The translations under genes and the position numbers were made by a program. A stretch of DNA of 64,000 nucleotides from NCBI GenBank assembly GCA_030323885.1, contig CM059196.1:36620481-36684480 (forward strand), read 5' to 3'. Each line of letters opens with the position of its first letter. Position 1 is the first letter of the stretch. Under the pieces are notes generated by a model. It had not been told where the DNA came from, ran no database searches, and worked only from the letters and a program-made list of their open reading frames with translations. Below, piece after piece: positions 4,501 through 7,435 of this stretch. The DNA comes from Branchipolynoe longqiensis. Its lineage: Eukaryota; Annelida; Polychaeta; Phyllodocida; Polynoidae.

Positions 4501-7331
4501 TTGGTGGTGTTTGATGGTGTTTGGTTGGGTTGTTGTTGGTTGGGTTGTTGTTGGTTGGGTTGTTGTTGGTTTGGTTGTTGGTTTGTTTGTTTGATGTTGG
4601 TGGTTGTTGGTGGTTTGGTTGGTGGTTTGGTTGTTTTGACTGGATTCTCTAGTTGAGTGACTCATGCGCGGCCCCTGCGGGAGGGTCGAGGGATGCGTCG
4701 GCTACGTTAGTCGTTAGATCAACGGTGTTTTGTTGTGTTTGGTGGTGTTTGGTTTGGTTGTTGTTGGTTTGGTTGTTGTTGGTTTGATGTTGGTGGTTTG
4801 TTGTTGGTGGTTGTTGGTTTGGTTGTTTTGACTGGATTCTCTAGTTGAGTGACTCACGCGCGGCCCCCGCGGGAGGGTCGAGGGATGCGTCGGCTACGTT
4901 AGTCGTTAGATCAACGGTGTTTTGTTGTGTTGGTGGTGTTTGGTTTGGTTGTTGTTGGTTTGGTTGTTTTGGTTTGGTTGTTGTTGGTTTGATTTTGGTT
5001 GTTGGTGGTTTGGTGTTTTGACTGGATTCTCTAGTTGAGTGACTCACGCGCGGCCCCCGCGGAGGGTCGAGGGATGCGTCGGCTACGTTAGTCGTTAGAT
5101 CAACGGTGTTTTGTTGTGTTTGGTGGTGTTTGGTTTGGTTGTTGTTGGTTTGGTTGTTGTTGTTTGGTTGTTGTTGGTTTGATTTTGGTTGTTGGTGGTT
5201 TGGTTGGTGGTTTGGTGGTTTTGACTGGATTCTCTAGTTGAGTGACTCACGCGCGGCCCCCGCGGGAGGGTCGAGGGATGCGTCGGCTACGTTAGTCGTT
5301 AGATCAACGGTGTTTTGTTGTGTTTGGTTTGGTTGTTGTTGGTTTGGTTGTTGTTGGTTTGGTTGTTGTTGGTTTGATTTTGGTTGTTGGTGGTTTGGTT
5401 GTGGTTTGGTGGTTTTGACTGGATTCTCTAGTTGAGTGACTCACACGCGGCCCCCGCGGGAGGGTCGAGGGATGCGTCGGCTACGTTAGTCGTTAGATCA
5501 ACGGTGTTTTGTTGTGGTTGGTTTGGTTGTTGTTGGTTTGGTTGTTGTTGGTTTGGTGGTTGTTGGTTTGGTTGTTGTTGGTTTGGTTGTTGTTGGTTTG
5601 GTTGTTGTTGTTGGTTTGGTTGTTGGTGGTTGTTTGGTTGCTTTGACTGGATTCCCGAGGGATGCGTCGACTACGTTAGTCGTTAGATCAACGGTGTTTT
5701 GTTGTGTTTGGTGGTGTTTGGTTAGGTACCCCGGAATCCGCCGGGAGCGCCACTGTCGCCGGTGCGATAAAACTCGTACAACTTCTTGCGACTTTCTGAG
5801 CAGCCCAGTCATGTCGGAAAACGGCACACTGCACACAGGCACACTGCATTGACTGCTACATCTGGGTTTGATTGTTGGTTGTTTGAATCACCTTGATGTC
5901 AAGTTTGATCAGGATCAAACCATTAATAAAGAAACTGGAGTTATGGGGATGATTGTATTACGGTTGCCATGGAAACCAACATTTTTATGGTTGCCATGGA
6001 AACCTACATTTATCTCTGATCTAATTTATTTATATCAGTTTTGATAAGCTGAGGTGATTTGCCAGACCAAGAAGAACCTTAATGTGACATTTCATCGGGA
6101 TCTGACCATTATTAAAAAAGAGCTACAGTTGACTGATATTGTATGCGGGAGTGATTGTATTACGGTTGCCATGGAAACCTACATTTTCCTGTGATCTAAT
6201 TTTTGTATATCCGTTTTGATAAGCTGGGGTGATTTGGTATAAGAAGAACCTTGATGTCAAGTTTGATCAGGAACAAACCATTAATAAAGTGCAGTTGTAG
6301 GCATGATTGTATTACGGTTGCCATGGAAACCAACATTTTTCTGTGATCTAATTTTTTTATATCAGTTTTGATAAGCTGAGGTGATTTGACAGACCAAGAA
6401 GAACCTTGATGTGAAATTTCATCAGGATCTGACCATTATTTAAAAATAGCTACAGTTGACTCATATTGTAGGTGGGAGTGATTGCATTATGGTTGCCATG
6501 GAAACCTATATTTTCCGGTGATCTAATTTTTATATATCAGTTTTGATAAGCTGGGGTGATTTGGTATATGAAGAAGAACCTTGGTGTGAAGTTTGATCAG
6601 GATAGGATCATTAATAAAGAAACTACAAGGAAATGTTGTTATAATTAGTCTATTTAACAGCCCTAAATAAGGCACTTCTCTAGTGCATTAGCTAATACAA
6701 AAAATCTTAAATTCAAATGCACATATCTCATTCAATTTTTGGAATATCTTAAAAATTCAAAAAGCATATTGCTTTTGATTCATTGGAGCTTCCAATGAAA
6801 TTATAATTTGAATGTTTGGAATAATTTGAAAATTTTACTGGGGTACCTAACTAGGTCTAGCTAGGCCTAGCCCTAGCCTAGGACTAGTAGGAGTAGGAGT
6901 AGGACGATGGTATCAGCCTCTGCATATTTACATGACGTGACTGACACTAAACTGTGCTGTGGTAGACTAGTACATGCATTATATGTATACATGAAATCCT
7001 CTATATTCTCTGTGTGTTACGTTCAGGGCACAATTAATTAAAATAAATATCAAAACACAGCCGGATGAGCCCGTTGGTTTTAAGTTCTAACGCTTTGTTC
7101 TCGACCGCAGGTGACGCAGTGCCAGTGGTGAAAACCAAATGGAGATGCTGCCGTGCTGATTATAGCGTAAATTCAAGATGATTCGCTCCGCAATTTGCAC
7201 AGAAGACGCAAAAGTAATCTTACAGGGTAACCCCCTTGTTGATAACGCGAAGTCATCGGTGGACCCGGTGAAGGATAGCGTTGTTGCTGCATGTTTGGCG
7301 TAGGGTAGCCGGGCGCTGGTCTGGCCGCCAT
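1382..7331 (-). CDS. SMARCD/BAF60-like gene, first two coding exons (partial)
   Basis: Two exons join in phase 0: 7331-7224 (36 codons, starting at an ATG) and 1550-1382 (56 codons plus 1 nt, donor GTAGGT). The predicted N-terminus begins MAARPAPGYP and is rich in Gly, Pro, Met and Gln, with repeated GYPG/GGGYPG motifs and a run of six prolines, so it is intrinsically disordered. SMARCD (BAF60) subunits of SWI/SNF chromatin remodellers have such an N-terminus, human SMARCD1 also begins MAAR, and in human SMARCD3 and CDK5 lie in the same chromosomal region (7q36), which fits the position beside CDK5. The diagnostic SWIB domain would lie left of the window, so the family call is inferred. Other disordered nuclear proteins such as SS18 or SSBP relatives are possible. 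The 5.7-kb intron is packed with repeats. That both exons are coding is well supported by matching phase, composition and consensus splice sites. Confidence 0.6.
1640..2466. other. SMARCD-like intron, unremarkable
   Basis: AT-rich sequence with no exon, long open frame or repeat that I recognise. Confidence 0.45.
2467..2791. mobile_element. Tc1/pogo-like palindromic MITE
   Basis: Long inverted repeat: the left arm (about 2469-2565) and right arm (about 2690-2789) are near-complementary, ends CAGTATAACCCCATTAAACC, bounded by TA. A related terminus TTTGGTTTAACGGGGTT at about 2904-2920 suggests a second, nested copy. Confidence 0.8.
2922..3212 (-). mobile_element. SINE family 1 copy
   Basis: tRNA-derived SINE read on the minus strand: a head with the B-box-like GGTTCGAACCC, body TTAAAAATTGATACTTG and GATATCAGGTCATGGTGCTG, and tail ending near CGTAAGACAACAAAC. 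It contributes RNA polymerase III promoter-like boxes. Confidence 0.85.
3316..3721. mobile_element. Mutator-like MITE, family A, copy 1
   Basis: 406 bp with inverted ends TAGATAAAGGATTCACCCGG and its complement, and conserved interior GGCCGCCATCTTGTC/TTTTTGCATTCTCTCCCA. Flanks GGCTAGATC and GGCTAGACC form a 9-bp near-perfect target duplication. Confidence 0.85.
4412..5700. repeat. GT-rich minisatellite, units of about 190-230 bp
   Basis: Six to seven units starting GACTGGATTCTCTAGTTGAG (at about 4412, 4638, 4829, 5019, 5222, 5415, 5644), each with a GC-rich core CGCGGCCCCCGCGGGAGGGT followed by a TTGGTTTGGTTGTTG stretch of variable length. The open frames here are by-products of the repeat. 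Confidence 0.9.
5880..6610. repeat. Dimeric (higher-order) tandem repeat, period about 340 bp
   Basis: Alternating half-units share ATTACGGTTGCCATGGAAACC (at about 5955, 6157, 6310, with a diverged copy at 6485), but differ in the block before them: TTGATGTCAAGTTTGATCAGG versus AATGTGACATTTCATCGGG. Halves A and B alternate, giving an A-B-A-B-A order. Confidence 0.8.
7224..7331 (-). CDS. SMARCD-like coding exon 1
   Basis: The start ATG is at 7331-7329 and 36 codons follow to a CCT|GTAAGA donor at 7224/7223. The encoded peptide starts MAARPAPGYPTPNMQQQRYP and ends QQGGYP. A different frame of the same DNA stays open for 84 codons, but it lacks the Gly/Pro/Gln composition and does not continue into exon 2. 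This frame does. Confidence 0.62.
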
Positions 7332-7398
7332 AGTGAATCACGTTGAAGTCGCGCTCTCGGCGAGATTTCTGCGGAAATCTATCAACATCAGTTGGGAG
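7332..7398. promoter_or_regulatory. 67-bp divergent inter-ATG region (SMARCD-like / CDK5)
   Basis: Only 67 bp separate the minus-strand ATG at 7331 from the CDK5 ATG at 7399. Core promoters and both 5'UTRs must therefore overlap, or lie inside the opposite gene's first exon, unless untranscribed-looking upstream exons exist. No TATA box is visible. The stretch is moderately GC-rich with several CG dinucleotides, in keeping with a bidirectional housekeeping promoter. Confidence 0.55.
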
Positions 7399-7435
7399 AT
7401 GCAGAAGTATGAAAAATTGGAGAAAATCGGGGAAG
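7399..7435 (+). CDS. CDK5: CDK5 exon 1 (start codon)
   Basis: Encodes [12 protein letters not shown] plus the first base of G13. The donor is GTAAAG at 7436. The ATG is chosen because it matches the conserved CDK5 N-terminus exactly in length. Confidence 0.95.

Follow-up and report, generated by a model that had tools for sequence, protein, structure and literature searches.

Are CDK5 and the gene that faces it transcribed in opposite directions from one promoter? This question is raised by the 64,000-nucleotide window analyzed here (the whole stretch, C11:36620481-36684480 of a 1.85-Gb, repeat-rich genome), in which the plus-strand CDK5 ATG at 7399 and the minus-strand ATG at 7331, that of a SMARCD (BAF60) gene, are exactly 67 bp apart (7332-7398). 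The preliminary description of this DNA gave both ATGs and their spacing correctly, and the short, easily overlooked minus-strand exon to which it drew attention is also as described (Table 1). Both exons that border the gap are the first coding exons of genuine, diverging genes; that they are chance open frames was rejected on their donors and phases, on the completeness of the CDK5 model and on a shuffle test of SMARCD exons 1 and 2 that is taken up below. Duplication of the locus was rejected too, as 7100-7700 is matched once in the genome in a search that skips common words.

The minus-strand ATG has an in-frame stop three codons upstream, and the CDK5 frame is open upstream to 7309 with no ATG before 7399. 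A second in-frame SMARCD Met lies 13 codons on and is like the MQQ starts found in several molluscs and annelids; with that Met as the start, the distance between the start codons would grow to 106 bp. By a rough estimate, taking 30,000 genes (an assumed number) scattered randomly over 1.85 Gb, a given start would have a divergent one within 67 bp with a probability of about 5e-4. Close divergent gene pairs are, though, common in animal genomes, and for that reason the tightness of the spacing is not unusual in itself.

Table 1. Exons and candidate promoter features of the divergent pair (positions are those of the window unless prefixed C11), with the contigs that carry the two genes in other animals
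Feature	Location	Strand	Details
CDK5 first coding exon	7399..7435	+	37 bp, 12 codons plus one base; GTAAAG donor
CDK5 exons 2-5	14582-14670, 15505-15572, 16471-16588, 17934-18029	+	homology; in-phase GT..AG introns
CDK5 exons 6-9	22301-22472, 23557-23687, 25855-25935, 28096-28194	+	homology; in-phase GT..AG introns
SMARCD/BAF60 first coding exon	7224..7331	-	36 codons, ends in phase 0; GTAAGA donor; peptide MAARPAPGYPTPNMQQQRYPSPGPPMTSRYQQGGYP
SMARCD exon 2	1382..1550	-	AG acceptor, GTAGGT donor; phase 0 to 1
SMARCD exon 3	C11:36508128-36508215	-	AG/GT borders; phase 1 to 2; peptide MHRSGMAAMQASMDRKRPADLRGAQQMK
SMARCD exons 4-12	C11:36423936 down to ~36399696	-	conserved exons; alignment to human SMARCD1
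Inter-ATG gap, putative shared-promoter core	7332..7398		sequence; no TATAWAW match inside
CpG-rich stretch, putative promoter island	6926..7900		observed/expected 1.10, 52 CpG; spans both first exons
Lingula anatina	635,262 bp contig		SMARCD and CDK5 matches
Patella vulgata	47,190,821 bp contig		SMARCD and CDK5 matches
Paralvinella palmiformis	365,718 bp contig		locus tags LSH36_693g02086, LSH36_693g02093
Ostrea edulis	48,989,042 bp contig		SMARCD and CDK5 matches
Helobdella robusta	7,351,509 bp contig		SMARCD and CDK5 matches
Octopus bimaculoides	105,892,736 bp contig		SMARCD and CDK5 matches
Bacillus rossius	72,962,172 vs 59,965,237 bp contigs		genes apart
Chamberlinius	1,065,580 vs 15,943,689 bp contigs		genes apart

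The CDK5 gene is complete within the window, with nine exons, 296 codons and a stop that ends at 28194, and its introns are all GT..AG (8/8) with consistent phases. The original CDK5 call is upheld by this model: among the matches listed the top scorer is CDK5 of Lingula anatina, with 92% identity over 100% of the query, and this full-length match places the product closest to CDK5 among kinases. As 95 of the 120 CDK5 proteins among the matches listed open with MQKYEKLE, 7399 is very probably the CDK5 start codon. CDK5 activity is restricted mainly by its activators p35 and p39, so the label ‘neuronal kinase’ requires no neuron-specific promoter. Intron 1 contains a Ty3/gypsy-type retroelement on the CDK5 strand, with a long open frame (10018-13452) and reverse transcriptase, RNase H and integrase domains, and, adjoining the right edge of the CpG-rich stretch, a MITE-like element recognized by eye (7915-8260) with imperfect inverted ends CTATAGAGGG ... 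CCCTCTATCATAG; a LINE-type reverse-transcriptase frame is on the minus strand of intron 5 (18752-20377).

For the opposite gene a chromatin-remodeling subunit had been guessed, and the guess is borne out, as downstream exons on the same strand hold a SWIB domain and so identify it as SMARCD/BAF60. Twelve coding exons have been traced over about 228 kb of the minus strand, running left out of the window. The SWIB family has a single match in the whole genome (E <= 0.001; 70.9 bits, over the cut-off), on the minus strand of C11 213 kb left of the window; the conserved core is present as well, and the product is 72% identical to P0001 over 97% of the query. Conserved exons were placed by aligning the 280 kb left of the window to human SMARCD1. 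The phases of exon 2 (1 at its end) and of the KKKKKIADKILPQR exon (2 at its start) do not join directly, which called for an intervening exon; it was found (exon 3), and its peptide MHRSGMAAMQASMDRKRPADLRGAQQMK resembles MHRSGMTPAMQAAIDRRRQ of P0042. The junction phases of exons 1-4 then chain as 0, 1, 2, 0; intron 2 spans 113.6 kb and intron 3 84.2 kb. The short terminal coding exon was not found in the sequence left of the window. Following exon 12 are two more partial copies of its 3′ part (C11:36399448-36399640), a local tandem duplication which may make the gene's 3′ end ambiguous, and the 25 longest open frames in C11:36424000-36620480, within introns 2 and 3, are repetitive or retroelement-like by eye.

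The start codons lie in a CpG-rich stretch with its midpoint at 7413, 14 bp from the CDK5 ATG. Its CpG observed/expected ratio (Table 1) compares with 0.61 for the whole window and, in 300-bp windows of the flanks, with 0.00-0.24 for starts at 6201-6701 and 0.25-0.47 for starts at 7801-8001. Because 21 further stretches satisfy this CpG rule elsewhere in the window, the longest being the tandem repeat at 4401-5825, the composition supports a promoter without proving one. TATAWAW occurs in 6926-7900 only at 7816-7823, in CDK5 intron 1, with no match near either start codon or in 7332-7398; a fly-type initiator, TCAGTT, is at 7388-7393 and is one of seven such matches in 6926-7900. A bacterial promoter scan of 7100-7700, a method unsuited to animal DNA, found nothing. 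The locus has two of the features expected of a bidirectional promoter pair, namely one CpG-rich, TATA-poor region (6926-7900) across both starts and two real opposite-strand genes diverging from it, with a full model for CDK5 and a near-full one for SMARCD.

SMARCD intron 1 contains two tandem repeats, one being that at 4401-5825, GT-rich and CpG-rich with units of about 190 bp, and the other an array at 5885-6640 with units of ~155-190 bp, at a distance of about 0.9-1.4 kb from where the two genes start. In the latter, at 5963-6505, are five perfect copies of GTTGCCATGGAAAC, which we take to be RFX X-box-like sites, where shuffles of the window lead one to expect 0; there is no exact copy elsewhere in the 280 kb to the left. 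Special conservation of the five sites was rejected since the surrounding tandem unit is alike too; the array is possibly regulatory, or else no more than a recent repeat.

With only 67 bases between the start codons, one shared promoter is the likely arrangement, and on the sequence evidence CDK5 and SMARCD are quite probably transcribed oppositely from a single CpG-rich one. Transcripts of both genes would begin in or beside the gap. Broad promoter activity would fit both genes, since it is mainly p35 and p39 that limit the activity of CDK5. Unspliced leaders that jointly exceed 67 nt must overlap head to head, so sense-antisense overlap of the 5′ ends is predicted as likely; the median for mammalian leaders is given as ~150 nt in the available text of PMC2518114.

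Splice acceptors bear on how far this reading holds. A matrix was built from the 19 real acceptors of CDK5 and SMARCD, which have leave-one-out scores of -2.7 to 13.6. On the SMARCD strand an acceptor with its exon start at 7368 scores 7.9, a value that 14 of the 19 real ones do not reach and that is in the top 1.5% of 7,511 AG sites. The CDK5 strand has good acceptors at 7110 (6.7) and 7026 (6.5), both within SMARCD intron 1, while its best in the gap, at the left edge (7333), reaches 3.7, above 3/19 real ones, and the rest are lower. With good acceptors on both strands, either gene may have non-coding exons upstream, and the scores at 7368, 7110 and 7026 speak for a rival reading, in which one or both genes start from a promoter of their own with a non-coding first exon and run antisense through the other's start, with no common core promoter. 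In that case SMARCD transcription would start farther right, in CDK5 exon or intron 1 (using acceptor 7368), or that of CDK5 farther left, in SMARCD intron 1 (using 7110 or 7026). Against this, a score as high as that of 7368 arises by chance at about one site in 67, a single CpG-rich stretch takes in all these acceptors as well as both starts, and the nearest other CpG stretches are at 8876-9675 to the right and the tandem repeat 4401-5825 to the left. Separate promoters are regarded as unlikely. These acceptors all fall inside the CpG-rich stretch; such exons would add to the antisense overlap instead of setting the two genes apart.

A shared promoter may also have helped to hold CDK5 and SMARCD together, because the genes appear linked in six other lophotrochozoans, where a script comparison located SMARCD and CDK5 matches on contigs of base-identical size (Table 1). 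It covered the best 120 of 1,781, 7,992 and 1,645 records, with the longest contig per protein cluster, and compared 76 SMARCD with 67 CDK5 contigs of at least 10 kb; the six coincidences are all lophotrochozoan. For Paralvinella and Helobdella the species name is on both records, and the other four were paired through identical contig size alone. Eleven lophotrochozoan CDK5 clusters are named among the matches listed, and 6 of them are same-contig cases; the others (Lamellibrachia, Pecten, Capitella, Solemya and Dimorphilus) have no recognizable SMARCD record. Four of the six linkages are loose, the common contig being 7-106 Mb, and only those of Paralvinella and Lingula are tight. Of arthropods, two are named in the SMARCD as well as the CDK5 list, and in each the genes are on separate contigs. 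In cattle, the available part of PMC7655849 places CDK5 and SMARCD3 together in two overlapping intervals of chromosome 4 (1.88 and 1.75 Mb), listing CDK5, SLC4A2, FASTK, TMUB1, AGAP3, ASB10, GBX1, IQCA1L, ABCF2, CHPF2, SMARCD3 and NUB1, and in the second interval also H2BE1; by that list linkage is kept and adjacency lost, with ten protein genes between the two.

Judged from same-contig linkage, as distinct from adjacency or orientation, the CDK5-SMARCD pairing looks old. The arthropods and cattle, with no adjacency, and the four linkages at chromosome or large-scaffold level only would suit mere chance neighbors or general conservation of chromosomes, with no common regulation. That account is quite unlikely, considering that 67 bp leaves little space for two independent promoters and that the linkage is tighter in Paralvinella (366 kb contig, close locus tags) and Lingula (635 kb). 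A bolder extension of the shared-promoter reading, which is quite possible but tentative, is that the head-to-head pair was ancestral to bilaterians and kept one promoter for ~500 million years, to be broken by intervening genes in vertebrates and by rearrangement in arthropods, and that CDK5 transcription would be tied to the dosage of the remodeling complex. In a 742-column tree of CDK5 plus SMARCD the window is on a short branch outside three molluscs, with supports of 53-77 (100 for arthropods); the supports are weak, and the ‘mollusc’ label under which the preliminary description had discussed the locus is not established.

The N-terminus of SMARCD was compared with 122 SMARCD N-termini, 32 of the 154 proteins being omitted as no N-terminus of more than 60 residues could be cut from them. 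Exons 1 and 2 together have a best score of 167 against a shuffle maximum of 134 (n=200); exon 1 alone passes narrowly (82 versus 80). Exon 2 alone has weak homology, its best score being reached by 3 of 200 shuffles, and Pfam and PDB sequence searches with exons 1 and 2 alone gave no match. That these Gly/Pro-rich exons are part of some other gene, separate from the SMARCD body at a distance of 198 kb, as their low complexity, the weakness of exon 2 and the 113.6 kb to exon 3 might suggest, is highly improbable in view of the 200 out of 200 shuffles beaten by the pair, the exact chain of phases through exons 1-4, and the QRYPSPGPPM and YQQ.GYP motifs that exons 1 and 2 have in common with SMARCD N-termini. 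MAAR is at the start of 7 of the 154 SMARCD proteins among the matches listed and within the first 150 residues of 11 more, which makes the Met at 7331 a plausible SMARCD start. A comparison with MAARPAPGYP-type exons, which had been suggested at the outset, holds in part at the protein level: the exon has a resemblance to the SMARCD N-termini of other animals, and Owenia P0006 and P0042 (Lingula) start with MAARP.

The arrangement is of a known kind, but very tight for a large, repeat-rich genome, and has signs of deep conservation. According to the available text of the sources, some 10% of mammalian gene pairs are within 1,000 bp (PMC2194621), and 4,398 Drosophila genes, 32.2%, are in a head-to-head arrangement (PMC4773876). 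Like animal bidirectional promoter pairs, the present one has divergent starts (here ATGs) far less than 1 kb apart, is CpG-rich and lacks a near TATA match; it differs in having its ATGs just 67 bp apart in a 1.85-Gb repeat-rich genome, and common transcription here is a prediction. Another parallel is with the ancient metazoan microsyntenic pairs of Irimia et al. 2012 (as cited in the accessible portion of PMC5429095), which are likewise functionally unrelated genes with apparent linkage in several phyla, but there the link is to enhancers in introns, whereas the constraint proposed here is a shared core promoter. The vertebrate CDK5-SLC4A2-...-SMARCD3 block, as far as the cattle source lists it, likewise unites CDK5 with a SMARCD gene in a single chromosome 4 interval but has SLC4A2 beside CDK5 and ten protein genes in between. 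The SMARCD start ATGGCGGC, with A at -3, recalls TISU, an element of very short leaders (PMC2518114, in the text available), and would need a short leader; however, it matches the core AAGATGGC at 6/8 positions, and a full TISU element was rejected on that count. The CDK5-SMARCD pair and its apparent deep conservation were not found in print in the open-licence literature searched, and the retrievable parts of PMC4072594, PMC8656749 and PMC7205035 are unrelated lists with nothing on the pair.

For annotation there is the lesson that a 36-codon first exon, ~204 kb from the conserved gene body (exon 4 onwards), is easily missed by gene predictors. If the pair is ancient, it would provide a natural experiment on whether unrelated genes can be kept together across phyla by a core promoter in common and not by a distant enhancer, and co-regulation of CDK5 and a BAF subunit would be predicted in lophotrochozoans.
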